From a virus: DNA of 43,870 nt. The translations under genes were made by a program, and so were the position numbers. The notes beneath the pieces are model-generated. The model did no database searches, was not told where the DNA came from, and saw nothing but the letters and a program-made list of their open reading frames with translations. This document shows, piece after piece, positions 1-40,262 of the stretch. The stretch is taken from the IMG/VR virus record IMGVR_UViG_3300045950_000304, positions 1 to 43,870 of that record; one strand, given 5' to 3'. The first letter of the stretch is position 1. Each line of letters opens with the position of its first letter.

Positions 1-3000
1 CGTGAAGCGCCCAATCACCGAGTTGTAGGCTGACACACGGAAGTTCCAGAAGGGGGCGGAGCCGTCACTCTTGTCGGCGATGACCGACACGTCGCGCCCG
101 GTCCAGTCGTCCGAACCGCCGGCGAGCCCGGCGCACTCGATGAAGTTCGCTCCTACGGACGTGACTGGGACACCAACGACGCCCGAGTGGATCACGGTCT
201 TGGCCTTGACGCGGATGATCCGGAAGTTGGGCGAAGGCAGGCCCCAACTCGAGCGCACCAAGGCAGCCGTTATCAGGATCGAGGCGGGCGTGCCTGCTCC
301 CTCGAGCTGGCGGCAGATCAGCTGCGGCTCGTCCGAGGAAAAGACCACGTAGCCGGTGAACGTGCCCACTGGCCATTGAATGTCCGAGAGTGTGATTGTG
401 TTGGTGCTGGTTCCGGCGGGAACGGCGATGGAGATGATGTTCGAAGGCGGCGACAGCTTCCCGCTCGCGTCCTTCACGCACACGGCCAAGTGGTAGCTCC
501 TGCCGCCGGGGATCGTTCCACCAGTCGAACTGGTCGAGACCGACCGGATGACAGGCGCGGGGACCGAGGGGATAAAGTCGTTGACCGGCAGCTTCCCCGT
601 GACCTCGATGGCCGCGAGTGCGGTGCCGTCAGCCAAGGCACTGTAGACCTGGGCGACATCGAACGACCAGTCGTTCTCGTCGAACATCGGATCGTCAGTC
701 GGAGGCTGCGCGACGTAGGGATGCCAAACCAGCCCCGACGGCAGTGGATGGAATTCGACGGGCACCGGGTCCGCGGGCACGTCGGCGGGTTTCGGGCCAC
801 TGACCAGGTCGTACATCGAGTCCGTGGTCGTGCGGCCCTGGATGTCAATGGAGTAGTCCTTGTTGAGCCGCCAGCCGGTCACGCGGAACTCGCCGGTCCC
901 GCCCGGCATGTCGGGATGGGTCAAGCTGCACACCATGCCAGGCTCGGTGGTCAGCGCGAGCACGGTAGTCTTGAAAGAGATCTGCCGCGCGGCCTTCCAT
1001 TCGGCCTGTGTGATTCCGCCCAACTCCTCGCGCAGGCGAATGGCGATGATGCGCGCCGCCTGAGACTTGCTCGCGGCTCCGGACAGGTTCAAGTTCGACT
1101 TCAGGAACAACGGCGAGACCGCGCCGCCGATGAGCTTCGCGTGGTCGATGTCGTAGAGAGTGATCGAGTTGTTCACGAACTCGAACTCCTCGTCGGCGAA
1201 GTTGGCCGTCAGGTGATTGAACGACGGCTTGAGCGGCGCCAGGGTGAGGCTCTGGAAGAGGATGTTCCCGACCGTGAACGCCTCGACAACGGACGAATTC
1301 ATGCGCACGCCGAGCTTCAACTTCCCGAACGCGAAGGTGTAGTAGCCGAGGCAGTTCATCAATACTTCCTGAATCCAGTCGCGCAAGGGCTTCTCTTCCT
1401 GGATCACGCCGCGGAACTTGAACTGGGTCTCGGTACCGCTGCCGACCAGCTTCGTCACCGGCTGGTCGCAGAGCGATGCGGCGGCGATGGCGGCGTTCAC
1501 GTCGATGTACTGCTCGGCCGTCGAAGCGTCGGCGAAGCGCAGGCCGCGCGCTCGCAAGAGCATGTTGACCGCGATCCAGATGGGATTGGTGAGGACCTGT
1601 TGCGAGCGGACGCCGGGTGCGGTCCAGACCCAGCCGCTGAGACCTTGCGCGACAACGGCCTGCATCTCGTGCTCGCCGGGGCGCGAGAGCTGGAGGCCCT
1701 TGGCATCGGTGCGGCGCAACTCGATCAGAGCCGTGCCGGCGGCGAAGTTGTCGAGGAAGGTGCTGTTGCCGGAGAAGACCTTTCGCCAGTCGCCGCCGGT
1801 CTGGTTGCCCGACTGACCAAGAGAGAAGAAGTCGGTGGGGTTGGCGGGGTCGGTTCCGAGAGCCTCGCGCAAGCCAAACGGGCCAGGGCTGCCGTGGTGA
1901 AGCTGGCCATCGAGTTTGTGGCCGGCACCGAAAGCGCCAATCGGTCCCTCGCCGACGATGCCGAGCGCGTCGTAGAAATCACTCTCGTCGCGGCCTGCGG
2001 CGATCTTGCAGTTCACGGGCATCGGCGAGTCGGTGTAGATCTCCGGCAGAACCTCGTCGTAGATCGACTCGGCGACGAGCGAGACGCTGGTGATGGATGA
2101 GCGCCCGAAGCCCCAGGTACCGGTCGAGTTGTCCTTGATGCGGACGCCTTGCGGCTCGACCAGGACGCCTCCGAAGTAGCGCTTCATACCGTGTGCCAGG
2201 CAGCCGTTCGGTGTCTCGTAGCCCTTGTCGCACTTGGTGGGATCGGCGCTCGGGAAGTGGACCAGATCCATCGCGCCTTGTGTGGCGAACGGACAGCCCA
2301 GCCCGTCGTTGAACTGCTTCCAGCAGGTGCGTGAAATGCGGCGGGTCGGATAGGGTAGGTTCAGCTCGTACAGCCCGTCGGCGGCCGTGACCTGGAATTC
2401 CGGCCCTGAGTCCATGGACCAGCCGACGACGTCGCCCTTCCACAGGTCGAGCTTGATGCCCGTTCCCACATGGAACAACGAGAACTCGAGCGATGCCCGG
2501 AACAGGTCCACGTCGTTGGCGAGATCCCGCATCACGTGGTCGGCGTTGCCGAAGGTGAAGCGGGCCTCGTCGGCCTCGTTGCCGATGGATTGCGAAATGC
2601 CGTCGAAGTCGAGGAGACGCGCCTGGTAGAGTTGGCCTCCGATGGTGCAGCGCCGGTCGGAGACGTAGATCGCCGGATAGCCGGCCTGGAGGGGTTGGAT
2701 CTTGATCAGGGGAATCACTTCCTGAACCTGGGACAGCAAGGCCGTGGCAAGCCCGCTGGTGGGGAAGCGGGTGACGGTCTGGCTGAGAGTGTAGGCAGGC
2801 GAGCCTGAGGGGACCTCGATCAGCGTGATGCCGACCGTGCAGACGGCGTCGGAAAGCATTTCCCAGGAGAGCGGTTCGTTGGCAAACCGGCAGATAAAGG
2901 AAGTCGTGCCGTTACCGTCGTCGTTCGGTGCGTTGTAGGTGAAAGCACCATATGGGCCGGCCTTCGACTCCCAGAAGTCACGGAGCGCGATCCGGTCAGA

Positions 3001-4149: not shown

Positions 4150-4419
4150 CTATCGCTCTGCGACGCGGATGATGATAGACCGCTCGTCGGTGCGGCCGCC
4201 GGCGGTCGAGATCCGGTTTGTGACCGTGTAGATCTGCCCGGCGGTGCCGCCGGACAACCAAACCGTCGCCTTCGTCGTTGTGTTGCTGGCGGCCATCTGC
4301 GTGAGGCCAGTGGGGACCGTCCATTCGCTCGTCAGGATCGTGTCGTCGGCCAGCCACTTCGACCAGTCAATCGAGTAGTCGAGCGTGGCGCTGGGGTCTT
4401 TGGTGAACTGCTGGCTCAT
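4150..4419 (-). CDS. Phage fibre-tail adaptor-like protein
   Basis: This 89-residue protein starts at ATG 4419, overlapping the stop of the gene before it as ATGA. It begins with KDPSATLDYSIDWSKWL and continues with the pattern SSNTTT..VWLSGGTAGQ.YTVTNRI.T.GGRTDERS, which is a pattern I know from small phage proteins annotated as fibre-tail adaptors: a compact immunoglobulin-like beta sandwich. Such proteins are thought to join a fibre or tail-tip component to the tail. Its position next to the repeat-rich tail protein and the tail hub fits. Family assignment is by pattern recall; the length is as expected and no part seems missing. Confidence 0.75.
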   Translation of the reverse strand: MSQQFTKDPSATLDYSIDWSKWLADDTILTSEWTVPTGLTQMAASNTTTKATVWLSGGTAGQIYTVTNRISTAGGRTDERSIIIRVAER

Positions 4420-5114
4420 GGTTCTACGTCCCGGTCCTCGCCGGGTACCCGGAAGACGCGCCTATCAGCGCCAGCCTTGCGGGTACGGCTTTCAGTGCCA
4501 ACCTTGTGGGAACGATCCTCGAATGGCGGCGCGACTATTCTCGTCTCGGCGCGGACTCGAAATGTCCGGGAAAGAGCAGAGCCGAGAAATGTGGCAAGCC
4601 AGCCGACGGCGCTGGAAATCCCGGAAGCAACGCCGGCGAGGGCCCCCAGAAGCGCCAGCAAGGCGGAAGCCGTCGCGCTCCCCGTGGACACGCCGATCAG
4701 CATGCGCACACGGACCAGGAATCCAACCGCGGCTCCTGTCGCCGCTGATACTCCGGTCAGAATGCGAAGGACCGCTAACAGCCCAGCAACAGCCGCCTGC
4801 GCTATCGCCGTGCCCGAAAACTGCCGGATCGCCGCGAGACCGCCTACGGCGTTCGAAGCTGCGATAGCCGCACCCGAAAGCGCGCGGGCCACTGCGATTG
4901 AACCGCCCGCGGAGCCCAAACCGGCAATGGCCCCTCCGAGGCTGCGGAAGATTGCCACGGAACCAACGCCGGACGACTGCCCGAGTGTCGCCGCGGAGAA
5001 CCGCCCGAGCAGAGCAAAAAGGCCTGAGGCAAAGCCTGCGCCTGTTGATGTGCCGTCCAGGGCGTGAACCGCACCGCCTTGGGCTTCAAAGGCATCATGC
5101 AGGATGCGTGACAT
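4416..5114 (-). CDS. Repeat-rich phage tail protein (20-residue repeats)
   Basis: A 232-residue protein starting at ATG 5114, three bases after the upstream stop. Residues 31 to about 182 consist of seven to eight tandem units of exactly 20 residues; glycine recurs at positions 31, 51, 71, 91, 111, 131 and 171, with alanine at 151. A typical unit reads GSIAVARALSGAAIAASNAV. Small and hydrophobic residues alternate, suggesting a beta-solenoid or a membrane-interacting surface, not a globular enzyme. The C-terminal 50 residues are charged and Arg-rich. Similar Ala/Gly 20-residue repeats occur in some phage tail and fibre proteins, from memory. It lies among tail-tip genes and is coupled to the adaptor gene that follows. 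A tail-tip or fibre shaft component is the likely role; this is inference. Confidence 0.75.
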   Translation of the reverse strand: MSRILHDAFEAQGGAVHALDGTSTGAGFASGLFALLGRFSAATLGQSSGVGSVAIFRSLGGAIAGLGSAGGSIAVARALSGAAIAASNAVGGLAAIRQFSGTAIAQAAVAGLLAVLRILTGVSAATGAAVGFLVRVRMLIGVSTGSATASALLALLGALAGVASGISSAVGWLATFLGSALSRTFRVRAETRIVAPPFEDRSHKVGTESRTRKAGADRRVFRVPGEDRDVEP

Positions 5115-5117
5115 TGA

Positions 5118-5642
5118 CTACACGTTGACCAGCACGAAGCGGTCGCCAGCGGTTGGCGCACCGGTGAACGCCGCGCCCACGGTGATGATCTTCGTCACCC
5201 CGGAGTAGCCGGTAACCTTCTTGACCTGGCCCTCGAGCGCGCCGGAGGTAAACACAATCAGGCAGTCCCTCCAGAAGTCATTTACGCTCGAGGCCAAATC
5301 GGTCTTGAACGCTGTGGCGCTGTTGCCGGCGTCGGCCTGGACAGTGCCGCTCGGCCGACCGTCCGTTCCGATCTGGATATCCACCGGGTCGATCACGCCG
5401 CTCTTCTCAATCTTCACGTGGACCCAGCTCGCGTCCATCTCGGCGGCGGTCAGTGTGAACTGGTAGCGGCCCGAAGTTCCGATCTCGGTCACTGCACCGT
5501 TGATATCTACAAAGGCAGCGCCGTCCTTCGAGATCTGCACGTCGCCCGCGCCGAACGCGACTGCCGAGCGGCGCAGGGGCCTCCGCGTCGAGTCGACTGC
5601 GGCGAAGGAAATGGCGAGAGCCTGAGCCCGCCTAACTGACAT
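5118..5642 (-). CDS. Phage tail-tip / fibre-associated protein
   Basis: A 174-residue protein from ATG 5642 (MSVRRAQ), overlapping the end of the upstream gene by 11 bases; an earlier possible start at 5714 would overlap that gene much more and is less likely. Residues 33-75 (DVQISKDGAAFVDIN and on through GRYQFTLTAAEMDASWVHV) form an immunoglobulin-like beta domain that I recall from many phage tail proteins, where it resembles the upper part of receptor-binding protein complexes. The C-terminal region (DFWRDCLIVFTSGALEGQ, then KKVTGY..TKIITVGAAF) is also a recurring phage module. It probably belongs to the tail-tip or side-fibre structure. No catalytic motif is visible. Confidence 0.75.
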   Translation of the reverse strand: MSVRRAQALAISFAAVDSTRRPLRRSAVAFGAGDVQISKDGAAFVDINGAVTEIGTSGRYQFTLTAAEMDASWVHVKIEKSGVIDPVDIQIGTDGRPSGTVQADAGNSATAFKTDLASSVNDFWRDCLIVFTSGALEGQVKKVTGYSGVTKIITVGAAFTGAPTAGDRFVLVNV

Positions 5643-6897
5643 AGATCGTCTCCGACCGGGAAAGCTCCTGCGCCGACTCCAGGCTGAACGTGATGCCCGC
5701 TTCGAACAAGCCACTAGCCGACCCGTTCTTCAGAACCAGCGCCACGCCCTCGCCCTCGCGAATTCGAATGGGTTCGACCAACGCCGAAGGATTGCTATAA
5801 ACGGCGGCCAGCGATGGTGCTCGCATCGATAGCGGCATGACTCCGTAGCCTGTGAACTGCGGGCCGGCCCCGATGATCGCGGGCAGACAACGACGAACGT
5901 TGCCCACAATTGCTGCACCACGAGAGATGCCCACGGGCCGGATCAATGCGTCCCTTCGAACAACAACATCGCTTGGCAACTGCGGGTATGCCGAGTCGGC
6001 GGGCGTCACCGACACGTCCTCGCCTCCGACTAGCCCCTCGATGAACTCCAGCGTGTATGAGGGAACTTCCTGAGCGTCGCGGATCTCCTGCAAGGTGATG
6101 CCCACCACCTCCAACACCAGACCGCTGCCGACTCCGTTGAACAACGAGAAGAACGGGTACGCCCCTGTCTCGTTGCCCGCCCCGGCGGCTGACGACAGGG
6201 GTCGCGACACGATGTAGCAGTGGCCAGCCTGAGTCCGGAAAACGATGGTGATTGCGAGGGGCCGGTTCAGCGAGAAGTCAAAGCCAAATCCGAGCGTCGC
6301 CACGGCGATCCCCTCGCCTTCGCGCAACGTCACCCGCTGGCAGTTGGGCTGGGCATAACCTGCGATCAGCGCCGCCGCGCCACTCCACTGCGATGCCGAG
6401 GAATGCCGGCTGGCGAGATGCACGGGGAACGCCATGGTGCGGGTCCACAGAGGTGCGTCCATCTTCCAGAAGATGGTGCTCGACACGGTGAAGCCAGCCG
6501 GATTCGCTCGCGCGTAGACTTCCGGCGGAACGTCGGGACTTGCGGTGTCGAGCTTGCTGACGGAGATCGCCTCGCCGCCGGTCAATGCGGTCAGCCTGGC
6601 GATCCGAAGAACGGGAGCAACTGTCGTCAGCGCGGTTAGCGATCCTTTGCCGCACAACGGCAGCACACGGATCTCATCGATTCGCACGACGGCCTCTGAT
6701 CCCCGCCCGTTGAAGATTGCCAGCACTGCCCGGTGATCGGGAGTGTAGGAGAACGTGATCGCGGCGCCGGAAGCGAGAACGCCGGTTAGTGGCTGCCAGG
6801 CAGCGCCGTCGTAGTTGATGACCGACTCGCCCGCTGGCGCGCCCAAGTGATCCCCGTCCAGGTACCGTGCGGCGTAGTAGGACCGGCGGGGATTCAT
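5632..6897 (-). CDS. Unrecognised phage structural protein, tail region
   Basis: A 421-residue protein starting at ATG 6897, three bases after the stop of the preceding gene. It is beta-rich with no transmembrane segment or catalytic motif I recognise. Two related segments stand out: VTLREGEGIAVATLGFGFDFSLNRPLAI near residues 190-220 and IRIREGEGVALVL...FEAGITFSLE near residues 375-405, each with the REGEG(I/V)A signature followed by a beta pair; this suggests two copies of one domain. The phrase is typical of virion proteins made of jelly-roll or Ig-like repeats. The genes on both sides also look like small virion proteins, so a structural part of the tail tip or a surface decoration is likely. 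Function not assigned. Confidence 0.75.
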   Translation of the reverse strand: MNPRRSYYAARYLDGDHLGAPAGESVINYDGAAWQPLTGVLASGAAITFSYTPDHRAVLAIFNGRGSEAVVRIDEIRVLPLCGKGSLTALTTVAPVLRIARLTALTGGEAISVSKLDTASPDVPPEVYARANPAGFTVSSTIFWKMDAPLWTRTMAFPVHLASRHSSASQWSGAAALIAGYAQPNCQRVTLREGEGIAVATLGFGFDFSLNRPLAITIVFRTQAGHCYIVSRPLSSAAGAGNETGAYPFFSLFNGVGSGLVLEVVGITLQEIRDAQEVPSYTLEFIEGLVGGEDVSVTPADSAYPQLPSDVVVRRDALIRPVGISRGAAIVGNVRRCLPAIIGAGPQFTGYGVMPLSMRAPSLAAVYSNPSALVEPIRIREGEGVALVLKNGSASGLFEAGITFSLESAQELSRSETIYVS

Positions 6898-8968: not shown

Positions 8969-9370
8969 CTAAACAACCTCCACCAGTGAGATTTCGACAT
9001 CTGCACGCGCGAGCCCGACCGACTGCTCCCAAGCGCCTTCGAAGCGCACCGTGTAACGGCCCTGCGTCGCAGTGCCGGTTGGGTCGTAAGAGAACTTCGG
9101 GATGGCCTCGAAGGGGTCGTAGAAGTAGAACGGCTCGTGCGGGCCCTTGCGGGCGTCGTAGAAGTCTCGGAGTTGCTGAAGAAGCGCCGGCGTCAGGCGC
9201 TTACCCAGCCGCCAGCGTTTGCGACTGGTCGAAACGAGCAGGCCACGCTGCCATTCGCCGTTGCGATACTCGTTCTCCAGCAGGGCGTACTCTCGCGAGT
9301 GCGCGAACGCGCGGCAAAGACTCTGTGGCAGCACGGTCCCTGGCGTGGCACTTTGCACGGAGTTTGGCAT
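8969..9370 (-). CDS. Minor tail protein (DUF2460 / gpM-like)
   Basis: A 133-residue protein from ATG 9370. The central pattern LLQQLRDFYDARKGPHEPFYFYDPFE, followed by a beta-rich C-terminal half ending DVEISLVEVV, is the one seen in phage minor tail proteins of the DUF2460 or lambda gpM-like type, which sit at the distal end of the tail below the tape measure. In lambda-like order this gene would directly follow the tape measure gene; here the GAF/HAD cargo genes have been placed between the two. It is followed three bases later by the endolysin gene. Assignment rests on pattern recall and position. Confidence 0.78.
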   Translation of the reverse strand: MPNSVQSATPGTVLPQSLCRAFAHSREYALLENEYRNGEWQRGLLVSTSRKRWRLGKRLTPALLQQLRDFYDARKGPHEPFYFYDPFEAIPKFSYDPTGTATQGRYTVRFEGAWEQSVGLARADVEISLVEVV

Positions 9371-9573
9371 CGAGACTTAGCCATTGATGCGGTTCGCTAT
9401 TTACGAGGAGCCACGCAGCCAAAGCTCAAGAGCTCCCCTCACCCTGGTAGACAGAGGCAGATAGCTGGAAATGTTTGAATGTCCTGGATCACTCTCTCGG
9501 AGGATGAGGAGTATGAATGAATGGGCGCTGGTTTGACCGGACATTCGATGACTTACAGAGTTGCCAAAGGAAC

Positions 9574-10452
9574 CTACTCAGTAGCCAGCCCGCAGTGGGG
9601 AAGAAGCTCGTCGAAAGACTCGATGATCTTCTCCGGCGGTGCTTCCACTATCTCCTTCCGCAGGCGTTCTTCCTCCGCGACCTCAGCTTCGGTCCAGTAC
9701 GTTATTTCTAGGAGTTCTTTATAGAGGTCGCTTGGGCGATGGCTACCATATCGGGCCCACACACCGTTGATCTGCGCCCTCCGCGCAAGTAAGATGTCCC
9801 GTGATAGGCTATCGCCAACATAAAGGCTCTCCTCCCGCGGTACTCCGAAGGCCTCGAAGACCGGAACGAGAGTCGCTGGATCTGGTTTACGGATTCCCGC
9901 CGAGGATTCTAGAAGCATACAACGTGACTCGACGGCCTCGTTGGATCTGCGACGCACAGACGTGGCGTTGAGGTGAGGAGGGATCCCGTGATCGCGAGGG
10001 GCGCAGATGGCGGAGATCAAGCCATCCACATCGAGCTGCCGTAGTCGGCGGCTCACGTAGCTCATCATGGAATCACTGTGCGCGACCACAATCACACCGG
10101 CTTGCCGTAGACGCTCAAGGCTTTCCCTGACACCCGGGTAGAGCTTAAGATTCCTCTTGCGCGTCAAGCGGAAGGCATGCACTGCGGAATCGTACTTCCT
10201 AAGTCGATCCTCCGGGGAGAGGCCCTCGTCAATACTGTTTAGAACGTCAAGTTCCTCGACTGCAAAGGCGTATTCAGTTGTGCCGTGAGCCTGGTACACC
10301 TTCCGAAATGACCGTTTTAGGCTTCCGGTGTCTAAGCCACTAATTCGCTGGATCTCTTGAACCATCGCCAGAAAACTCGGAATGAAGAAGGCGAGCCAGT
10401 CGTAAAGCGTGTTGTCTATGTCGGTGATCACCAACCGCACTGAAGGCTTCAC
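9574..10452 (-). CDS. HAD-superfamily hydrolase (cargo gene)
   Basis: A 292-residue soluble phosphatase-like protein, GTG start at 10452 three bases after the upstream stop, with GGAG placed upstream. All four HAD motifs are present: D11-I-D13 in TDIDNTLYD (nucleophile and acid/base), Ser126 in VVAHSDS (motif II), K189 in RKPDP (motif III) and D214/D219 in VGDSLSRD (motif IV), so it should be active. The cap domain lies between residues 20 and 105. Substrate cannot be told from sequence; the family includes nucleotidases and phosphoglycolate-type phosphatases. It has no counterpart in lambda-like tail operons and is paired with a two-TM GAF-like gene, suggesting a functional pair, possibly for superinfection exclusion or host signalling. 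The base composition is less GC-rich than that of the tail genes around it. Confidence 0.88.
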   Translation of the reverse strand: MKPSVRLVITDIDNTLYDWLAFFIPSFLAMVQEIQRISGLDTGSLKRSFRKVYQAHGTTEYAFAVEELDVLNSIDEGLSPEDRLRKYDSAVHAFRLTRKRNLKLYPGVRESLERLRQAGVIVVAHSDSMMSYVSRRLRQLDVDGLISAICAPRDHGIPPHLNATSVRRRSNEAVESRCMLLESSAGIRKPDPATLVPVFEAFGVPREESLYVGDSLSRDILLARRAQINGVWARYGSHRPSDLYKELLEITYWTEAEVAEEERLRKEIVEAPPEKIIESFDELLPHCGLATE

Positions 10453-10455
10453 GGC

Positions 10456-11196
10456 CTAGACACTCCGAAGGGCCTCTTCAAGTTGGGCGAGAAAGATATC
10501 GCGAATCAACTGATGGCAGGTTTCGCACCCGCCTTTTTGGAAGCGTTGCGGATCACTAGAATCGATGAAGAGAACTGCCCGGGCGTTAGGCCCCTCCTGA
10601 CCTATCGGGTAAGCCATGAACGAGTGCCGCCCAGGAGTCACGCTCGCCAGTTCCGACCGATCAAAGCCCCAGCGTTGGTTCATGGCTTTTCGCCAGCATT
10701 CGTCAGGCTTTGACTCGAGGTCCCCCTGTGTCACGACTTCCAGGACCGACCAGCAAAGCGGTTGCCTCGTCTTGAACACCTGACCGACGATGCCGTGGCT
10801 AAATGTGAACACACGTCCACTTGCCGCCGAGTCCCTAGAAGGGTAGTAATCAGTGAGTTGTTCGTACAATTGCCGTCGGTTGCTTTTCAGGATGTGTAGG
10901 GTCAGCCGCTCCTTGTCAGTGAGCTCCAACACCCGATGGATTACGGGCAGCATGGAGGACAGTAGCTTGGCTGCTGCATACCGCCCCGGGGTGAGTCCTG
11001 TTAGGACGATGAAAAAAACTAAGACAAGGGAACCAAGCCCATAGGCCACGCGCCATGGCTGATTCGGCTGCAGAGCAAGACTGACCGTTGCAGACGCCAG
11101 CGTCGAGAGCAGTGCAAGGGCCACTGCACGGTTGCGTGAAAGTACGCCGAGGAGCCAAGTCTGGGTAAAGCGGACCAGGTCTCGTATTGCTCCCAT
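10456..11196 (-). CDS. Two-TM membrane protein with GAF-like domain (cargo gene)
   Basis: A 246-residue protein from ATG 11196; a TTG at 11235 would add 13 residues without a better ribosome site. Residues 24-42 and 49-69 are hydrophobic and form a helical hairpin, leaving a cytoplasmic domain from about residue 75. That domain shows a GAF-like outline: a helix (MLPVIHRVLELTDKERLTLHIL), then VFTFSHGIVGQVFKTRQPLCWSVLE, then RHSFMAYPIGQ...ARAVLFIDSSDPQRF, the strand arrangement of small-molecule sensors. It ends with GCETCHQLIRDIFLAQLEE. It is followed three bases later by the HAD hydrolase. The combination of a membrane hairpin, a sensor domain and a phosphatase suggests a two-protein signalling or defence unit carried as cargo. 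The GAF call is based on pattern, not on a search. Confidence 0.8.
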   Translation of the reverse strand: MGAIRDLVRFTQTWLLGVLSRNRAVALALLSTLASATVSLALQPNQPWRVAYGLGSLVLVFFIVLTGLTPGRYAAAKLLSSMLPVIHRVLELTDKERLTLHILKSNRRQLYEQLTDYYPSRDSAASGRVFTFSHGIVGQVFKTRQPLCWSVLEVVTQGDLESKPDECWRKAMNQRWGFDRSELASVTPGRHSFMAYPIGQEGPNARAVLFIDSSDPQRFQKGGCETCHQLIRDIFLAQLEEALRSV

Positions 11197-11334
11197 CACG
11201 ACTTCATGAGAACATGTTTGGCCTTTGGCACGCAAGCGTCTGTCGTAGGATCACCATTCCAAGGGTCAGCTAACGCATCTCGGTTTTCTGCTTAGTATCG
11301 CTTCGGAGCCAGAACAACTTTGTATGCTGTTGGT

Positions 11335-14300
11335 CTAGCTTGTCAGGGTGCCTGGGCTCAAATGCAGGCTCAGCAGTTCGCGTCGCCCAGCGTTGGCTTT
11401 GGTTGCGGAAACGGCCGCAGCCTGCACAACACGTGGGTTCTCGGCAATGGCCTGAACAGCTTCGCCTCGCAGCAAGGCTGTCGTTGCAGGCCCGTCGAGC
11501 TTGATCACGATTGGCGCTGCGTTCTGTATCGCACCGGCACCGATCCGATCCAGTCCGATGGTTGGCAGCCCGGCGAACGCCGGACCGCCATTCGAAAACG
11601 CCCCTTGCTGGAAGAGCGCGCCGCCCGATTGCGCAAGTGATACTGGCCGGAGCGTGGCGGGCAGGCCAACGGGCTTCTGCCCGGTCGAGAGCGCATACAA
11701 CTCGACCAGGTCGCGTACCTGTGGGCTGCGGATGGCGACATCCAGATTCCCGCCGAAGGCCTGTTTCGCAGTGTCCACAACCTGGCGCAGAACTCCCTTG
11801 TCGGAGATATCTACGCCGTAGACCGCCTTGATCTTCTCCCGCGCCTTCTCCTGTGCGCCTTTGACAAACAGGCGAACGATGCCTGCGACAGCACCCGCTC
11901 CCGCTCCGATGGCCGCGCCCAGCGGTCCGCCGTACTTGAATCCGATCAACGCGCCGCCAGCGGTGGTCATCGCCAGTCCCGACAACCCGCCACGCCGCAA
12001 GCCGGCCAAGGCCAACAGTCCGCCGCCCAGGGCGGCAGCGGGCGAGTGCAAGACGGAAGAGAGTCGCTGGACAAGCGTGGCGGCCTGCCATGTCGTGGCC
12101 ACACCCGGCCCCAACTGAACGCTGTCGCCGATCCCGAAGAACTCCTTCAGGCCCGGAAGAAAGCCGGCAAAGCCCGCTGGCGAGAAGCCGCCGGACCGCG
12201 TCGATCCCGTGACACCTGGAATGCTTGCGTTTGGGTTGAACGGAGGCGTAGTGATCCGGCCGACGCCACCGAACACCGGCACAGCGCCGATTCCCAGGAC
12301 GCCGCCCAGCCTGCCAAGCGCACCACCTCCAACACCCCCCTGGGCGAAGCTGACTCTTGCCCCAGTGAAGAGCTGAGTGAGCAAAACGGCCACGCGCGAT
12401 GTCACGACCTCTTTGATGGCTGTCAGCAGAGCTGTCTTGAGGGCGTTGCCGATCGCGCCGAAGACCGATTGCGACTTTGTCAGCAGTGCGTCGAACACGC
12501 CGCCCGCCTGTTGCTTGAGCGAGTCGAAGATCTGCCGGTATTGGTCGCGGACCATCTGCGTCTGCCGGATCGTAGCGTTCTCTCTTGCCGCCGTGATCGC
12601 AGCATCCGTCTGCTCCGACATTTGCCGCCGGATTTCCTCGCGCTGGCCAGCAAGCTCGGTGATCCGTGCATTGACCCGCTCGGCCTCGAAGCCCAGCCTC
12701 TCCATCCGCAGGCGTTCGTCGAACAGGATGCGGTCGGTTTCAAATTCGAACAGCCGCATCTTGATCTCATGGACCCTCTGAAGATAGGCAACCTCGATCT
12801 CCATCTTGCGCTGTTCGACGCCAAGCTTCTGCCGCAGCGTTTGGGCGTCGCCGGCTTCGAGCGCTCGCAGTTGGGCGTCCCGAGCGATCCCGGCCCGTTG
12901 CTCTTCGAAGCCGTAAACCTTCTCAATGTGCTCAAGGTTGCCGGCCGCCGCCTGCCGCTGGTAGTCCAGTCGCTTCTGAAACAGGTCGGTCTCGAACTCG
13001 AGCCGGCGCTCGTAGGCGTCGCGTGCCTGCCTCAGCAGGTCGTCGCTTTCTTCCTTGGCCACGGCGCGCAGCTTCACCTGGAGGGCACGCTCCACGTTTA
13101 GCCGCGTTTCGGTTAGCATCTGGAATCGGTGCTCGACGCCCCGCTCGTCCACCACGGTCGTGAGCTTGTCGATCTCCTTCTGGACCTCCAGCAACGCTTT
13201 GGCTGGTCCCTTGACGGCCGACTCCTGGGCCGAGAGCAAGAACTCCCGCGACGCGCGCACTCCCTGGAGCTGGCTCTTCTGGATGTCCTTCGCCAGCTCC
13301 TCGGCCTGGCGCTTGCGCACCTCGCGCAACTCCTGCTCGTTGACCACCTTGAGCCGCACACCGAAACTCTCGGCGTCGAGGTTCAGGAACCCTTCCGCAC
13401 CGGCCTTGGCGCCGACAAAAGCGCGCCGGATCTGGTCCACGGTGAAGCCCATCTTCTGGAGATCATCCAGGTTCTTGCCCTGGTTCGAGACCAAGTCGAG
13501 AATCCGGGCCGCCTCGGCCGCAGTCTTGTTCTGCGCGAACAGCTGCTCTTCGAGTTCCTGGGAGCGCCGCTGCATCTCGTAGAACGCCGTCCCGGCGATG
13601 GTTGCGCCGATGGCGATCAGTGTGATCGGGTTGCGCGCCATAGCCAGCGTCAGGGCATCGACGGCGACCTTGGCCCCGGTCACCCAGGTGATGAACTGCC
13701 CAATGGCGAGCCCGACGGCCGCGGCTCCGATGGCTTTGGCAAACAGGGAGATGGCATCGGCGTTCTCCCTGGCCCACTTGGCCAGCTCCGTCAGGCCCGA
13801 GATCAGCTTTCGCAGCTCGGGGAGGAACTGTTGGCCGATGGCGGCCTTCGCCTCCTCGATAAACCGTTCAAGCGAGGTGATCTGCTTGCCGACGGTACCG
13901 AGCGAGGCTTCGTAGGCCCCGGCAATCTTGGGCGCTTCGGCGAGGACTCGCTGGAGGGCGAGGTTCTTCCGCTCGAGGTCCGTGAGGTCACGCCCCAGCC
14001 GCTGCCGCGCGCGAGTGAAGGCCTGCTCGAACTGGACGTTGATCCCGTAGGTCCGCAGCACTTCGATTTGCTGCGTGGTGATCCCGTGGATGATCCCTTC
14101 GAGCGCCTGGCTCGAGTTCTGGCCGGCGACCACGGCGGCGTCCTGGGCCAAGCGGGCCAGATCGGTCGCCTTCGACAGGTCCAGTTGCGCCGCGATCATC
14201 TTGTTAACCGTGTCACGGCTGGCCTGGGTGGTGATGCCAAGGGCTTTGATCCGGTCCACCAGGCGCTCGATAGCGTCGCCGTTGTAACTGTTTGCGCGCG

Positions 14301-14604
14301 CCAATTGTTGGTTCACCACCGCCAAGGTTTCGTTGCGCGCCGCGAGCCTGGCCGCCTCGAGTGTGTACTCCTTGACCCAACCGACGACCTTCTCGAAGGC
14401 ATGTGCAAGCACCGTGCCTGCGGCCGCGCCTCTTGCCACGCTCGCCGTCAGACCGTCGATGCCTTGCGAGGCACCACGCGCGGCAGACACGGCGGTCGAT
14501 TCCAGGCTCGACAGGCTCGCGTTGACGCTCTTGATCGAGTTGTTGGCATTGTCAGCCTCGACCTGGATGACGAGTTGGAGTGTGTTTGGGTTCGCCGTCG
14601 GCAC
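11335..14604 (-). CDS. Tail tape measure protein
   Basis: A 1089-residue protein that sets tail length and is expected to be threaded through the tail tube. The GTG start at 14604 is preceded by AGGA eight bases upstream. Residues 1-280 are helical with a typical tape-measure start (LQLVIQVEADNANNSIKSV). Residues 288-342 are strongly hydrophobic (AIGAAAVGLAIGQFITWVTG, then NPITLIAIGATIAGTAFYEM) and likely insert in the host membrane at DNA entry. A long charged coiled coil runs from about 345 to 690 (many QRRSQELEEQL and RLEFETDLFQKRLDYQRQ segments), and a Gly-rich region follows with another small hydrophobic stretch near 900. It is the longest complete gene here, as in other siphoviruses. 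It follows the G/GT genes, though with an inserted cargo pair between them. Confidence 0.92.
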   Translation of the reverse strand: MPTANPNTLQLVIQVEADNANNSIKSVNASLSSLESTAVSAARGASQGIDGLTASVARGAAAGTVLAHAFEKVVGWVKEYTLEAARLAARNETLAVVNQQLARANSYNGDAIERLVDRIKALGITTQASRDTVNKMIAAQLDLSKATDLARLAQDAAVVAGQNSSQALEGIIHGITTQQIEVLRTYGINVQFEQAFTRARQRLGRDLTDLERKNLALQRVLAEAPKIAGAYEASLGTVGKQITSLERFIEEAKAAIGQQFLPELRKLISGLTELAKWARENADAISLFAKAIGAAAVGLAIGQFITWVTGAKVAVDALTLAMARNPITLIAIGATIAGTAFYEMQRRSQELEEQLFAQNKTAAEAARILDLVSNQGKNLDDLQKMGFTVDQIRRAFVGAKAGAEGFLNLDAESFGVRLKVVNEQELREVRKRQAEELAKDIQKSQLQGVRASREFLLSAQESAVKGPAKALLEVQKEIDKLTTVVDERGVEHRFQMLTETRLNVERALQVKLRAVAKEESDDLLRQARDAYERRLEFETDLFQKRLDYQRQAAAGNLEHIEKVYGFEEQRAGIARDAQLRALEAGDAQTLRQKLGVEQRKMEIEVAYLQRVHEIKMRLFEFETDRILFDERLRMERLGFEAERVNARITELAGQREEIRRQMSEQTDAAITAARENATIRQTQMVRDQYRQIFDSLKQQAGGVFDALLTKSQSVFGAIGNALKTALLTAIKEVVTSRVAVLLTQLFTGARVSFAQGGVGGGALGRLGGVLGIGAVPVFGGVGRITTPPFNPNASIPGVTGSTRSGGFSPAGFAGFLPGLKEFFGIGDSVQLGPGVATTWQAATLVQRLSSVLHSPAAALGGGLLALAGLRRGGLSGLAMTTAGGALIGFKYGGPLGAAIGAGAGAVAGIVRLFVKGAQEKAREKIKAVYGVDISDKGVLRQVVDTAKQAFGGNLDVAIRSPQVRDLVELYALSTGQKPVGLPATLRPVSLAQSGGALFQQGAFSNGGPAFAGLPTIGLDRIGAGAIQNAAPIVIKLDGPATTALLRGEAVQAIAENPRVVQAAAVSATKANAGRRELLSLHLSPGTLTS

Positions 14605-14798: not shown

Positions 14799-15917
14799 CT
14801 AGAAAACTTTGGAGTGACGGAATGGTATGACTTCTGTTTGCTTCCCCTTAGGCGCTGGAACAGGGACGCCAGTCACGTCTCGGAACGTTTCGGGTGTGAA
14901 TTTGAGGTTGCAGCACAGGGCCTCCAGCGTTACATCGGCCTTGGTTCCAAGCGCGCCCAGCGCTGTTACCAGCAACTCTGGCTCCTGAAACGAAGGTTCG
15001 TTCGGTTCGCCCTTAGTCCACCCTTTCGCAGACATGTACTTGAATGCTTGGCGATAACCGACTGCATCGAGCAGCCTGAGGTCATAAGCCCGTCTGATGA
15101 TTGCGGCTGCGCTCGCTTGCCACCGACCCTTCAGGTCGAAGATATGCTTCCACGAGAAGGGTGAGAGGCTGAACTCTCGACCGAATGCCTTACGAGGCAT
15201 CAAGAAGGCGCTGGCGAACCTGTCAGCGGCCGACTCGGTTTCGAGCGTACCCGTGGGAACGTCCCGATGCATCACGAGATGAGCGCATTCATGAGCGATG
15301 TCGAAGTTCCATCGCGATGTGCTCTGCATCGACTCATTCAAGAAAATGACCGTGGTTCGCCCGTACCTCGAGAAGGCGTCCACCTTCGTGGACCGGACTG
15401 GCTGGCGCACGATAATCACTCCGGCGTGCTCGAGCACCCTGCCTATCTGTAGAATCGGCGCATCCAGACCAAGCTTCCAATGCCTACGGCACTCCTCTGC
15501 CGCCGTTTCGATCTCTTCGGCACCCGACGTCGGGATGTTTGGCACATTGATCTCTGGGAATCTGAAGATCGAACGCAACTGCCTGATGACCATGCCCAGC
15601 AGCGTTGCATGAGCGCGCACCTGGGTCTTGAGCCGCTCTGGAGTGGTCCGGCGATGCCTAAAGCTGCACTGATCTTCGCGGAAGACGTCATCGAGCGAAA
15701 CATAGAAAAAGGCAGGCTCGAACCCCAGGACAGCGCCACATGCTTCGACTAGGTCCCGTGCAGGGCCTCTCTTCTTGCCTGCCTCGCAAAGGGAGATGAG
15801 GGCAGGCGAGGCCGCAACTTTCTCGCCAAGTTCCTTCTGCGTCAAGCCCCGGAACTCACGCGCCAGCTGCAGTCGTTCGCCCCAGAATACGTCGCTTGGA
15901 AACAACGGGCCGCTCAT
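14799..15917 (-). CDS. XRE-family regulator fused to ImmA/IrrE metallopeptidase
   Basis: A 372-residue protein whose ATG at 15917 overlaps the stop of the preceding gene as ATGA. Residues 13-51 form an XRE helix-turn-helix (RLQLAREFRGLTQKELGEKV, then SPALISLCEAGK). Residues 140-250 carry the ImmA/IrrE zinc protease: H209-E210-C211-A212-H213 in the HExxH motif (FDIAHECAHLVMH) and E228 in ETESAADRFASAFLMP as the third ligand. Such fusions are known to cleave repressors or act with toxin-antitoxin or mobile-element switches. Here the gene lies inside the tail operon, where it has no structural reason to be, and it is paired with an unknown gene and preceded by a palindrome array that may be its operator. 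It could be a moron defence unit, an antitoxin-like regulator, or a lysogeny switch. Function beyond the two domains is not established. Confidence 0.9.
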   Translation of the reverse strand: MSGPLFPSDVFWGERLQLAREFRGLTQKELGEKVAASPALISLCEAGKKRGPARDLVEACGAVLGFEPAFFYVSLDDVFREDQCSFRHRRTTPERLKTQVRAHATLLGMVIRQLRSIFRFPEINVPNIPTSGAEEIETAAEECRRHWKLGLDAPILQIGRVLEHAGVIIVRQPVRSTKVDAFSRYGRTTVIFLNESMQSTSRWNFDIAHECAHLVMHRDVPTGTLETESAADRFASAFLMPRKAFGREFSLSPFSWKHIFDLKGRWQASAAAIIRRAYDLRLLDAVGYRQAFKYMSAKGWTKGEPNEPSFQEPELLVTALGALGTKADVTLEALCCNLKFTPETFRDVTGVPVPAPKGKQTEVIPFRHSKVF

Positions 15918-16552
15918 CAGGCTTCTTCTGCTTGACCAGACTTCCCTTGCCTACTCTCTTCGGCAGTCTTCAAAGGCTCAATTGTCGGTGGTGGCAGGTT
16001 GACAGGTTGAACTTGCATTGGAATGACACTACCTGGCTCAACATCGAAGGGAATGGCGAAAGTCTCTGTGATGTTCGACGCGTCGTCCATCTCGACAAAG
16101 CTGACACCGGAGACTTGGCGTGTGCCCCGATCAACTTCGACGGCGAGACGGAGCGTCTTATCCACTGGGGGGAGGCCTTCCATTTGCAGCAACATCTGCC
16201 GATGGTGCAATTCCCCGTAGGTAGTGATGAGATATGGTTCAGGCGGATCGTCGGGCGTTCCCCTGTAGAACCTGAAAGTCACCGAGCCTACCGCGAAACT
16301 GAACCGCAAGAGCTCAGCCTCTGGCAAGATCTTCAGCCATGGGTAACGCGTGGCGGCCAAGCGTATCGCGTGACAGGTCCTCGTGTAGACCCGACAGCCA
16401 AGGCTCCATTCTGTGTCGCCGTTCGCAGGATCGTGGAGCCGAACCGCGTCCCGCCTTACATCACGAATGACGTTCGCAAGAGCAGAAAGGCGGTCGATCG
16501 TGAGATCCGGATACTTGGTCCATGGCTCGAAGTTGTTCATGGACACCAGCAT
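15917..16552 (-). CDS. Unrecognised partner of the ImmA/IrrE protein
   Basis: A 211-residue protein from ATG 16552 (ATG at 16540 is also possible; neither has a clear ribosome site). Residues 5-95 (NFEPWTKYPDLTIDRLSALANVIRDVRRDAVRLH, then GDTEWSLGCRVYTRTCHAIR) are helical, and the central part (residues 85-180) is beta-rich with RFYRGTPDDPPEPYL. The C-terminal 35 residues are Pro/Glu-rich and disordered, ending GQAEEA. No catalytic motif is visible. Its stop codon overlaps the start of the XRE-ImmA/IrrE gene, so the two are made together in fixed order, a layout typical of toxin-antitoxin or protease-substrate pairs. It may be the target or toxin controlled by the protease; this is inference. 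Confidence 0.75.
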   Translation of the reverse strand: MLVSMNNFEPWTKYPDLTIDRLSALANVIRDVRRDAVRLHDPANGDTEWSLGCRVYTRTCHAIRLAATRYPWLKILPEAELLRFSFAVGSVTFRFYRGTPDDPPEPYLITTYGELHHRQMLLQMEGLPPVDKTLRLAVEVDRGTRQVSGVSFVEMDDASNITETFAIPFDVEPGSVIPMQVQPVNLPPPTIEPLKTAEESRQGKSGQAEEA

Positions 16553-26534: not shown

Positions 26535-27791
26535 TCAGGCCGCAGCCTTGCGGCGCTCGTCTGACACTTCGTCGAAGCAACGGCTGGCGCTTTCGAGTAC
26601 GGCCTTCTTGCCCGCGAACTCCTGCCAGCGGCGGACCGCGACGTCCACGTACTTCGGCTCGAGCTCGACCAACCGCGCCTGGCGTCCGGTCTTCTCGCAT
26701 GCGATCAACGTGGAACCCGAGCCACCGAAGGGATCGAGGACCACATCTCCCGACCGGCTCGAGTTCTGAACCGCTCGCTCGATTAACTCGACGGGTTTCA
26801 TGGTCGGATGAAGGTCGTTCGCCACGGGTTTCTTTACGAACCAGACATCGCCCTGGTCGCGGGCGCCACACCAGTAATGCTTTGCGCCTTCTTTCCATCC
26901 GTAGAGGATCGGCTCGTACTGACGCTGGTAATCCGAGCGGCCGATGGTGAAGGTGTTCTTGGCCCAGATGACGAACGTCGACCAATGGCCGCCCGCCTCA
27001 GTGAACGCCTTGTAGAGCGTGTGCAGCTCAGAGGACGACATGCAGATATAGACCGCGCCATTCGTGACCGCCAGGATGTTCACGCAGGCGTCGTACATAA
27101 ACCGTTCAAAACCGTCGCCCAGGTTGTCGTTGGCGATCTCGCGCTTGTTGCCGCGCAGCCGATCCTTCATGGTCGCGCCATAGTTCACGTTGTAGGGCGG
27201 ATCGCAGAAGACCATGTCGGCCTGCCCGGCAGCCAGGACCTTCTCGACGTCGCTCAAGACAGTGGCGTCGCCGCATAGCAGGCGGTGCTTCCCGAGGAGC
27301 CACACGTCGCCAAAGTGCGTGATAAGGCTCTCGGACGGTTCGGGAGCGGCATCCTCATCGGTCTGGCCGGAAGAGAGATGGTCCGGTTCCTGGAGCAGGT
27401 GGTCCAGTTCCTCGTCGGTGAAGCCCAGCAGATCCAGGTCAAACTTGTCTTCCTGGAGCGCCTGCAATTCGACGCGCAGCATCTCCTCGTTCCACGCCGC
27501 CCCACTGATCGCCAATTGATTGTCTGCAACGACCAGGGCCCGGCATTGTGTCTCCGTCAGTTGATCGAGGAGGATGACCGGCACCTCGGTCATGCCGAGC
27601 TTGCGTGCCGCGAGCAGTCGTGCGTGGCCGGCAATAAGAATTCCACCAGCTCCAACAAGGATTGGATTCGTCCACCCAAATTCCGCGATGGATGCCGCAA
27701 TCTGCGCCACCTGCTCTTCGGAGTGGGTGCGCGCATTTCTGGCGTAGGGGATCAGCTTGTCAACCGGCCACGCGACGACCGCGAGGTTCAT
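26535..27791 (-). CDS. ParB-domain DNA methyltransferase 2
   Basis: A 418-residue protein from ATG 27791, overlapping the previous stop as ATGA. Residues 8-70 form a ParB/Srx-like N-terminal domain (PVDKLIPYARNARTHSEEQVAQIAASIAEFGW and LIAGHARLLAARKLG). Residues 165-400 are a DNA methyltransferase: catalytic DPPY at 197-200 (CDPPYNVNYG) and SAM-binding DPFGGSGST at 353-361. Motif order (catalytic first, SAM site last) is that of the beta class of amino-methyltransferases; DPPY favours N6-adenine. Phages use such enzymes to protect DNA against host restriction. Its N-terminal half is clearly related to the methyltransferase at 28074-29561, so the two arose by duplication or joint acquisition. 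Confidence 0.92.
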   Translation of the reverse strand: MNLAVVAWPVDKLIPYARNARTHSEEQVAQIAASIAEFGWTNPILVGAGGILIAGHARLLAARKLGMTEVPVILLDQLTETQCRALVVADNQLAISGAAWNEEMLRVELQALQEDKFDLDLLGFTDEELDHLLQEPDHLSSGQTDEDAAPEPSESLITHFGDVWLLGKHRLLCGDATVLSDVEKVLAAGQADMVFCDPPYNVNYGATMKDRLRGNKREIANDNLGDGFERFMYDACVNILAVTNGAVYICMSSSELHTLYKAFTEAGGHWSTFVIWAKNTFTIGRSDYQRQYEPILYGWKEGAKHYWCGARDQGDVWFVKKPVANDLHPTMKPVELIERAVQNSSRSGDVVLDPFGGSGSTLIACEKTGRQARLVELEPKYVDVAVRRWQEFAGKKAVLESASRCFDEVSDERRKAAA

Positions 27792-28073: not shown

Positions 28074-29561
28074 TTACTTGGACTTCGTTCCGTAGCAGGG
28101 CATCCCGTTCGGCTTACGGCGTATAGAGCGCGAGTCCCGCTCGCGCAAGTTGGCTTCGGTGGCGACCGCTACCCCTCTGGTTGCTGCGACTTGATCGAAC
28201 GTCTGGCCACTGGCTTCCAGGACGACCGGTGCATCGGGAAGGAGATGCTGCACCCGGCGGAGGATCACGTCGCAGTAGGCCGGGCTGATCTCGATCCCAT
28301 AGCCAACACGGTTGAGCACGGCCGCAGCCGCGAGCGTTGTCCCGCTTCCCGTGAACGGATCAAAGACCACATCGCCGGCCCCGGAGAACGCCTTGATGAA
28401 GAACTCGGGGATCGCCCGTGGAAACGGCGCGGAGTGCGAACCTTGGCTCGACTCGGTCTTGGCCTCAATCACATTGCTCGGCCGCGCGATCCCTTCGTGC
28501 CGCCCTTCGTCGTGCTCTCCAAGTAGTCCGCTGCCAGAGTTTGACTTCGGTGTTTCGGGCGAGTAATCGAAGCAGCCGTCGGACCAGTGGCCGACCGCCT
28601 TCGGGTCACACTTGATCTCAGCTTGGCGACAGAAGTGAAAGATCGGCTCCCAAGCGTTCTTGAAGCGGTTGCCCCAGCCGCCGGGTACGCCGTTGTCAGT
28701 CTTGCGCCAGCAGAACTCGTCGACGAATCGCCAGCCCCACTCGCGAACGTGGGCCAGGGTCACGTCCTTGACGTAGAGCACGCGCTGGCCGTCTTCGGCG
28801 TGCTCCTTGATGTTCAGAAAGTAGGAGCCATCAGCCACCAGGATTGTCTCGATGCCGGCGGCCACGGCGCGAAACCACTCGACGTAATCCTCCGGCGCCA
28901 CCGGGCGAAATCCACTGGCCGGGTCGTACTCGCGGCGGGTCGCGTAAGGCGGCGACGTGACGACGACGTTGGCACGTGTTGCGCCGAACAGGCCGAGGAC
29001 GGCCTGGCGGTCGCGGCAGTCGCCACAAAGCAAACGGTGCGGCCCGATCAGCCATAGATCGCCGGGCTGCGTAACGGCCTGGACGGGTGCTTCGGGGACG
29101 CTCTCCGGTGCTGCACCCTCGGTGTCAGCGGCCTGGTTGTCGCCCGCCGCAAGCAGCGCATCCAGGTCCGTGTCCTTGAAGCCGGTCAGGCTGAGGTCGA
29201 AGCCGTCCTCGCGAAGCGCTCCAAGTTCGAGAGCCAGGGCCTCTTGGTCCCAGCCCCCAAGTTCAGTTAGCCTATTGTCCGCCAAAAGATAGGCGCGCTT
29301 CTGCGTCTCGCTGAGGTGATCGAGTACGACCACTGGAACCTCGGCCAAGCTGAGCTTGCGAGCTGCCAGGAGGCGCCCGTGGCCGGCGATCACGCCGGCC
29401 TTCGAGTCGACCAGGACCGGCGCGTTGAACCCGAATTCCGCGATGCTGGCGGCGATCTGCGCCACCTGCGAGTCGGAATGCGTTCGCGGGTTGCGGGCAC
29501 ACGGAATCAGTTTGTCAATCGGCCACAGCTCGATTCGCTGGGCCATCGCTGGCGAAAGCAT
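28074..29561 (-). CDS. ParB-domain DNA methyltransferase 1
   Basis: A 495-residue protein from ATG 29561 or, by comparison with its paralogue, from ATG 29546 (MAQRIELWPIDKL). Residues 14-75 form the ParB-like domain (DKLIPCARNPRTHSDSQVAQ, then AGHGRLLAARKL). Residues 170-430 are a beta-class amino-methyltransferase with TSPPY at 202-206 and SAM-binding DPFTGSGTT at 401-409. TSPPY is often found in N4-cytosine enzymes, so the two methylases may differ in base and target. The C-terminus is basic (RERDSRSIRRKP). It lies 22 bases after terminase and upstream of the hydrophobic gene. Likely role: protection of phage DNA. Confidence 0.92.
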   Translation of the reverse strand: MLSPAMAQRIELWPIDKLIPCARNPRTHSDSQVAQIAASIAEFGFNAPVLVDSKAGVIAGHGRLLAARKLSLAEVPVVVLDHLSETQKRAYLLADNRLTELGGWDQEALALELGALREDGFDLSLTGFKDTDLDALLAAGDNQAADTEGAAPESVPEAPVQAVTQPGDLWLIGPHRLLCGDCRDRQAVLGLFGATRANVVVTSPPYATRREYDPASGFRPVAPEDYVEWFRAVAAGIETILVADGSYFLNIKEHAEDGQRVLYVKDVTLAHVREWGWRFVDEFCWRKTDNGVPGGWGNRFKNAWEPIFHFCRQAEIKCDPKAVGHWSDGCFDYSPETPKSNSGSGLLGEHDEGRHEGIARPSNVIEAKTESSQGSHSAPFPRAIPEFFIKAFSGAGDVVFDPFTGSGTTLAAAAVLNRVGYGIEISPAYCDVILRRVQHLLPDAPVVLEASGQTFDQVAATRGVAVATEANLRERDSRSIRRKPNGMPCYGTKSK

Positions 29562-38850: not shown

Positions 38851-40262
38851 GCTTGTCCTTTCAGGAGCCGGAGAACGCCGTTGACGACGTCAGCCCGGTT
38901 GCTGAGAGCTGTCATCACTTTCTCGTCCACGGTCTCCTCGGCGAGCAGATGGATGTACTCAACGGGCCGCGTCTGGCCGGGGCGATGGACACGCGCCAGA
39001 CTCTGCTCGTAGGAACCGAGCGAGAAGCCGAGCGAGTAATAGATGGCGTAGCGAGCCCGGGTTAGATCGACGCCTACGCCGCCCGAGTCGATCTGCACGG
39101 CGAGGATCGGCGCTTCACCGGCCTGCCAGCGTTGAAGGTCGTCCATCCGGCCCGAGAGTTCGAGCGACCGGCGACCCACCTCGTCCGCGACGCGGCTTAC
39201 GGCTTCGAGGTCCTTGTGGAAGCGGCAGAAGGCGACTACAGGCTCCTCGGGGGCAATATCTTCGAGGACGTCGCGGAGCAGGTTCATCTTGGCCGAGTCG
39301 ACCTGGACGTCGCGGCCTTCACTGGTGCGAACGAACCCGCCGGTGATCTGCTGGAGACGGAGAAGCTTGACCAGGACGTTGGCTGCGGTGATCTCGCCAG
39401 CCTCGATCTCGGCGATCAGGTCGCGTTCCATCGAGCGATAGAGCTCGCGGGCCTCTGCTCCAAGCCGGCAGGTGTAAGTGACATGAACCTCGGGCGGCAG
39501 GTCGAGCACGTCCTTTGAGGCCGCGAAGGCGATGGAGTAGAACTTGCGATTCAGCTCGTCGAGGTTGCGGAAGGCGACCACCTGGTGGTTCTGGTATCCG
39601 CCCATCACCGCGTAGTGCTGGCGGAACTTCTGGAAGCTCCAGCCGAAGATGGCGGGGTCGAGGAAGCGGTAGTAGGCGTAGACGTCGAGCGGCGAGTGCG
39701 GCATCGGTGTTCCGGACAAGCCCAGGCGGTGCCCGGCGGCCTTTCCGAGCCGGGTCAAGTAGCGACTGGTCTTGCCGCCAGGCGCCTTGCAACGATGGAT
39801 CTCATCGGCAACCACCAGGTCCCAGCGCTGCTTAAGCGCCCACTCGGCGAACGGGCTGCGCCAGGCCGAGTCGTAGTTGATGACCACGCCCACAGGGACT
39901 CCGCGGGTTTGTGCCAGCTTTATGTGGCGCTCGGCTTCCTCGCGCTTGGCCTGGTTGCTGGTGAAAGAATCGTCGAGCGGGACCACCACCCACGGCTCGG
40001 CGGAGTGCAGATCAAACTGCGGTTTCCAAACCTGGACCACTCGTAACGGACACAGGATCAGTACTTTCTTGAAGCCGTGGGAGAGCGCGGTGTAGATGGC
40101 CATGGCCGTCTTGCCCGTGCCCATGGCAGCCGAGATCATCGCGCCGCGCTTGCCGCGGGCGAACAGACCGGAGACGAACTCCACGGCTTCGTACTGGTGG
40201 TTCCAGGGTGTGGTTCGGAAGCTCGATGATTGTGTGTGAGCGAGAGGGCTTGCGGCTGTCAT
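38847..40262 (-). CDS. SNF2-family DEAD-like helicase/ATPase
   Basis: A 471-residue superfamily 2 ATPase from ATG 40262, overlapping the sigma factor stop as ATGA. Motif I is SAAMGTGKTAM (K51), motif II ADEIHRCK (D153-E154-I-H156), motif III LSGTPMPHSPLDVYAYYRFLDP, and motifs V-VI are IDSGGVGVDLTRARYAIYYSL and QSLARVHRPGQTRPV, which is the SNF2 ending. Phage SNF2-type proteins are thought to translocate on DNA in replication or recombination; none of the added domains seen in chromatin remodellers are present. Length is normal for the phage form. It sits in the middle of a coupled early operon with primase and nuclease. Confidence 0.92.
   Translation of the reverse strand: MTAASPLAHTQSSSFRTTPWNHQYEAVEFVSGLFARGKRGAMISAAMGTGKTAMAIYTALSHGFKKVLILCPLRVVQVWKPQFDLHSAEPWVVVPLDDSFTSNQAKREEAERHIKLAQTRGVPVGVVINYDSAWRSPFAEWALKQRWDLVVADEIHRCKAPGGKTSRYLTRLGKAAGHRLGLSGTPMPHSPLDVYAYYRFLDPAIFGWSFQKFRQHYAVMGGYQNHQVVAFRNLDELNRKFYSIAFAASKDVLDLPPEVHVTYTCRLGAEARELYRSMERDLIAEIEAGEITAANVLVKLLRLQQITGGFVRTSEGRDVQVDSAKMNLLRDVLEDIAPEEPVVAFCRFHKDLEAVSRVADEVGRRSLELSGRMDDLQRWQAGEAPILAVQIDSGGVGVDLTRARYAIYYSLGFSLGSYEQSLARVHRPGQTRPVEYIHLLAEETVDEKVMTALSNRADVVNGVLRLLKGQA

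Follow-up and report, generated by a model that had tools for sequence, protein, structure and literature searches.

A HAD-family hydrolase gene with a predicted two-helix GAF membrane partner in a phage tail operon: a candidate anti-phage module

The gene pair and its setting

The window considered here, that is, the whole stretch of viral DNA that was analysed (43,870 bases), carries packaging, head and tail genes which all lie on the minus strand and among which a terminase, a major head protein and a head protease were identified. Within the tail region lie two intact open reading frames on that same strand, namely a gene for a membrane protein of 246 amino acids (10456..11196, ATG start, with an in-frame TTG ahead of it at 11235) and, separated from it by 3 bp, a gene for a HAD-superfamily phosphatase of 292 amino acids (9574..10452, GTG start). 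The membrane protein gene is the first of the two, and their close spacing suggests that they are co-transcribed. The pair is flanked upstream by a tape measure gene (11335..14604, minus strand), which shows weak PHROG matches and has 57 close phage relatives, and downstream by a DUF2460-like minor tail gene (8969..9370, minus strand; weak Pfam match, E 5e-4), with an M15 endolysin gene located two genes downstream of the pair. The coordinates thus confirm the position given in the initial annotation, which had placed two genes three bases apart between the tape measure and a minor tail gene.

The gap between the tape measure stop and the start of the membrane protein gene comprises 138 bp (11197..11334, minus strand) and that between the HAD stop and the DUF2460-like gene 203 bp (9371..9573, minus strand). 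No sigma-70 promoter of the E. coli type was found in the former, this being a consensus that may not suit this phage, and no terminator-like site was found in the latter. The window also encodes a sigma-factor-like protein (40259-40813, minus strand; phrog_1740, 7.7e-13), so the phage may use its own type of promoter, in which case a sigma-70 scan of the cargo would be uninformative. Elsewhere in the window two minus-strand genes (26535-27791 and 28074-29561), with one small open reading frame between them, each combine a ParB-like domain with a DNA methyltransferase (phrog_498). As regards the host, the tape measure protein had one distant match among 247 Acidobacteriota genomes, and the head protease was dropped as an indicator because Clp-like proteases match everywhere.

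The base composition of the pair sets it apart, as had been claimed from a comparison with its neighbours: its GC content is 0.565 versus a mean of 0.626 (sd 0.019) for all other stretches of equal size in the window, none of which is as low, and its GC3 is 0.63 versus 0.76-0.91 in the structural genes.

A variable cargo site next to the tape measure gene

Comparison with the 57 related tape-measure loci in viral contigs allowed the insertion site to be delineated. The DUF2460-like gene follows the tape measure gene with 58-75% identity wherever it was found, and the interval between the two genes differs from one relative to another: it amounts to 8 bp, that is, an empty site, in two of them (L153 and L170), to about 450 bp with a gene of 148 amino acids in most, and to 0.6-1.9 kb, filled with different content, in several more. 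None of these 57 tail loci holds the HAD gene and its membrane partner. Upstream (5') of the tape measure gene lies a second low-GC cargo (14799..16552, minus strand; GC 0.573), a RosmerTA-like pair consisting of RmrA (14799-15917; PADLOC 5.6e-69, HTH plus IrrE/M78 peptidase) and RmrT (15917-16552; 7.1e-10). The tape measure gene therefore has variable cargo sites on both flanks in this group of phages (L116-L172), and the site occupied by the HAD gene and its partner is one of these, which upholds the original description of the pair as cargo. In one relative (L136) the cargo on the 5' flank of the tape measure gene is a PADLOC PDC-S02 protein (1272-2225, minus strand; 2e-83).

The HAD hydrolase belongs to a rare, defence-linked subfamily

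The phosphatase matches Pfam HAD profiles as well as the PADLOC profile PDLC03008, 'Hydrolase', the latter at E 2.8e-49 and over residues 7-285 of 292. The motif residues D11, D13, S126, K189 and D214, from which the enzyme had been considered complete, are all present, as is D219, and its catalytic residues fall in invariant columns of the HAD alignment (A1). When used as a lone query the protein retrieved nothing from viral contigs and, from phages, only weak matches in Listeria phages. Twenty plasmid homologues and 97 from genomes and viral contigs were nevertheless collected; the latter comprise the best 80 of 405 relatives found by scanning bacterial genomes with the HAD alignment and 17 added by the scan of viral contigs. 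The family is rare, with members in 2 of 149 genomes surveyed from the phylum and in none of 14 control genomes. On these counts a housekeeping HAD phosphatase was rejected, and the protein is a member of a non-generic, defence-linked subfamily and not a metabolic one.

The genes that accompany this hydrolase were surveyed in 106 loci (the window, the plasmid loci and the genome and viral relatives), which represent a sample of best matches with near-copies included. Within this sample the partner is a Hydrolase-TM protein in 64 loci, a metallophosphoesterase in 32 and a transmembrane GAF (TM-GAF) protein in two, and in the remaining eight, some of which are cut by contig ends, none was recognised. 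The Hydrolase-TM gene is located downstream of the HAD gene in 45 of its 64 loci, fused to it in 11 and upstream in 8; an apparent HAD fusion in L059 was discarded as a spurious frame extension. Among the plasmid relatives the hydrolase either adjoins or is fused to Hydrolase-TM (PDLC03009), or it accompanies a Pua-like/metallophosphoesterase protein, with Hachiman alongside. On a quickly built HAD tree the type of partner changes 10 times, as compared with a mean of 32.1 when partner types are shuffled, and so tracks the tree.

The membrane protein of the window matched no PADLOC profile and is hence not of the Hydrolase-TM family PDLC03009, and its Pfam search returned no metallophosphoesterase match. 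The Hydrolase-TM and TM-GAF profiles also retrieved separate sets of proteins. It is thus a third, previously undescribed partner of this HAD family.

The membrane protein is predicted to carry a GAF domain

The membrane protein is predicted to contain two transmembrane helices (at about residues 23-41 and 47-67, with low model confidence), a linker helix (72-89) and a C-terminal GAF domain (about 90-246). The AlphaFold2 model, for which six homologues were supplied, has a mean pLDDT of 75, with most of the GAF core at 84-92. A Foldseek search with this model gave a best E value of 5.0e-7 and 78 matches at E <= 0.001, the top ones being GAF domains of PDE6, PDE10A and PtsP, with fRMsr also present, and structural alignment of residues about 70-246 with solved GAF domains (VIA) yielded Z scores of 13-15. 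The GAF domains of PDE6/PDE10A, PtsP and the cyanobacterial adenylyl cyclase CyaB2 share this fold at 8-20% sequence identity to the window protein. A single-sequence search with the protein itself did not reach the Pfam GAF cut-off; the remote homologues L114 and L115 pass that of PF01590, and the homologue in L010 matches it at E 0.0007-0.003. The GAF reading, which had been proposed from sequence alone, is accordingly supported by both the homologues and the predicted structure, and the assignment, as modelled, is sound.

Direct queries with the membrane protein gave no match in viral contigs, genome contigs, plasmids or phages, and a homologue was located only by way of the open reading frames upstream of HAD relatives. 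This homologue (4274-4978; 41% identity, E 1.7e-32) lies in L010, a contig of a Thermoanaerobaculia MAG, where it is directly followed by a HAD gene at about 4988-5852 whose product is also the closest match of the window HAD. The pair thus recurs, adjacent and in the same order, at an unrelated locus; this neighbourhood is without tail genes and contains, from a reading of its open reading frames, a Dam-like methylase and a ParB-like gene. Since both genes are found in two loci with their order kept and with 41% and 39% identity, chance reading frames were ruled out. Among the loci of HAD relatives, L010 is the only one outside the window to possess a TM-GAF homologue, which brings the number of complete pairs in the collections covered to two; further copies may exist. 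A third close copy of the membrane protein (L112; 44% identity) comes from a genome belonging to the L010 phylum and ends at a contig edge, so that its partner cannot be seen.

More distant relatives with two transmembrane helices and a GAF domain have no HAD gene nearby. In L113 (5035-6437, plus strand) and L185 (2358-582, minus strand) such a protein adjoins a SAM methyltransferase; the order of the genes differs and the genomes belong to two phyla, and homology between the methyltransferases is evident at E 3e-21. This may be another undescribed two-gene unit. Because it is found next to either a HAD hydrolase or a SAM methyltransferase, the TM-GAF protein has the appearance of a modular part that can be combined with various enzymes. 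Among 284 genomes of the phylum of the Myxococcota locus there was one TM-GAF match, at E 1.8e-4 and confined to the transmembrane region, and in other phyla the TM-GAF profile (A3) matched mostly generic GAF domains.

Relation to known anti-phage systems

It has been demonstrated that a HAD-like hydrolase together with a transmembrane protein, encoded in the psu-int hotspot of P4 satellites, inhibits T7, the transmembrane partners being assumed to be suicide effectors (Rousset et al. 2022; PMC9122126). At that position, between int and psu, E. coli P4 satellites encode a member of the HAD family described here together with Hydrolase-TM; the window HAD matches their HAD proteins at 6.5e-50 and 2.3e-51, and the second gene fits the Hydrolase-TM profile. 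The hotspot position and the published description strongly indicate that these genes are the T7-blocking system. It resembles the window pair in its HAD family, in an adjoining membrane protein and in a phage-related carrier. The partners, however, are unrelated in sequence: that of the window possesses two transmembrane helices and a GAF domain and is encoded upstream, whereas Hydrolase-TM has about 200 amino acids and usually lies downstream. One E. coli record (L209, 6996-8496) names the HAD and transmembrane genes of the satellite misB and misC; no papers using these names were found, nor did text searches for PADLOC 'Hydrolase-TM' retrieve any.

A second validated system, DS-9, combines a metallophosphatase with a HAD protein whose role is stated to be unknown (DefensePredictor, Science 2026; PMC13092281). 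An identical metallophosphoesterase-HAD pair is found beside Hachiman in L005 (3355-5837) and L211 (8001-10483), and this pair occurs on Enterobacterales plasmids and E. coli chromosomes; its gene content strongly suggests that it is DS-9. In one record its first gene is annotated as an anti-phage phosphoesterase. In both DS-9 and the window the second gene encodes a HAD protein of the same family, preceded by a gene for an enzyme or a sensor, yet the partner in DS-9 is a soluble Pua-like/metallophosphoesterase protein and not a membrane GAF protein.

The third point of comparison is Chp, a HAD-4TM-CARF phosphatase effector of type III CRISPR which halts growth and depletes both ATP and IMP (PMC12715507). 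Point mutants in the HAD active site of Chp remain toxic and deletion of the HAD domain abolishes toxicity, and the authors consider that the transmembrane part may be the effector (PMC12715507). Chp and the window pair have in common a HAD domain, likened at the level of the superfamily, transmembrane helices and a ligand-sensing domain. On the other hand, Chp is a single protein with four transmembrane helices and a CARF sensor fed by the cyclic oligoadenylate of Cas10, whereas the window has two genes, two helices and a GAF domain, and no type III CRISPR locus was recognised in it.

The proposal of a candidate new system consequently holds in part. The GAF membrane partner is new; the HAD family and its association with membrane proteins had been known before, so that the pair does not amount to an entirely new type of system.

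Proposed function and alternative explanations

The reading that is favoured, with a little better than even confidence, is that the pair constitutes a phage-carried HAD-hydrolase module directed against superinfecting phages, in which the usual membrane partner has been replaced by a two-helix GAF sensor. It is preferred because the HAD family is a partner in two experimentally validated anti-phage systems, because TM-GAF lies directly upstream of the HAD gene in both the window and L010, because a HAD domain, transmembrane helices and a ligand sensor form a proven defence design in Chp, and because the pair bears signs of mobile cargo (the lowest GC, absence from all related tail loci, two empty sites and RosmerTA across the tape measure gene). 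Several points count against it: complete examples of the pair number only two, no integrase that would point to a prophage state was recognised among the window genes scanned, no nucleotide cyclase or other ligand-making enzyme for the GAF domain was identified in the window, and the pair is collinear with the late tail operon without a promoter of its own having been found. In addition, the continued toxicity of the Chp point mutants implies that the effector step may be something other than phosphatase activity and that the transmembrane part might be the effector.

The defensive role, the contact between the two proteins, the ligand, the substrate and the growth arrest are all inferred for the window pair, and a possible course of events would be as follows. 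The two helices of the membrane protein would serve as its anchor, its GAF domain would face the cytoplasm, and the protein would keep the soluble HAD phosphatase inactive. Upon infection by another phage, a nucleotide or an infection-altered metabolite might bind the GAF domain, or the membrane might be disturbed; the phosphatase would then be freed or activated and would dephosphorylate nucleotides or another phosphorylated metabolite, thereby arresting the cell before phage is produced. Such a logic would be that of Chp divided between two genes, with GAF replacing CARF.

In keeping with the behaviour of the Chp point mutants, with the assumption that the transmembrane partners of the satellite systems are suicide effectors (PMC9122126), with the loss of toxicity in Chp when the HAD domain is deleted (PMC12715507) and with the HAD protein being the constant part across alternative partners, the roles could be reversed, the membrane protein killing by membrane disturbance and the HAD protein serving as sensor, regulator or ligand-processing enzyme. 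This is unlikely, as GAF is a sensor fold and the occurrence of TM-GAF with a SAM methyltransferase also fits a sensor better than a killer, and the membrane protein, with its two helices, shows nothing resembling a pore.

Sugar phosphates are frequent substrates of HAD phosphatases; this, together with the moron-like character of a low-GC insertion in a tail operon, would suit a pair that acts on the infected cell by altering its metabolism or its surface, for host fitness or superinfection exclusion, and not for abortive defence. The defence-linked HAD subfamily, with its full-length PADLOC match and its absence from the control genomes, makes such a role improbable.

A function for the phage itself, with the membrane protein acting in lysis as a holin type and the HAD protein as a nucleotide-salvage phosphatase in replication, would find some appeal in the nearby M15 endolysin gene and in the weak structural resemblance of the membrane protein to T4-like holins (ranks 14, 27 and 30 among the matches from the viral library). 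These holin matches are far weaker than the GAF matches, however, and the pair is missing from the 57 related tail loci and present in a bacterial contig (L010) with no tail genes nearby, so this role is very improbable. Slightly fainter still is the prospect of a toxin-antitoxin-like stability pair without a sensing role, which the tight spacing of the two genes and the RosmerTA pair nearby might evoke, whereas neither protein resembles a known antitoxin and GAF domains are ligand sensors.

Implications

In the 106-locus census a single HAD family has no fewer than three alternative partners. The occurrence of a GAF sensor in place of an otherwise uninformative membrane partner suggests that the superinfection module proposed here has its HAD enzyme gated by a small molecule, and the soluble GAF domain offers a place to look for that molecule. 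It may further be suggested, as a tentative possibility, that TM-GAF proteins form a hitherto unrecognised class of innate immune sensors located in the membrane, which are plugged into different small-molecule enzymes, such as the HAD phosphatase of the window and the SAM methyltransferase of L113 and L185, and sense a small molecule derived from infection. If true, this would mean that phage defence uses ligand-gated membrane signalling in more than the CARF- and cyclase-based systems.
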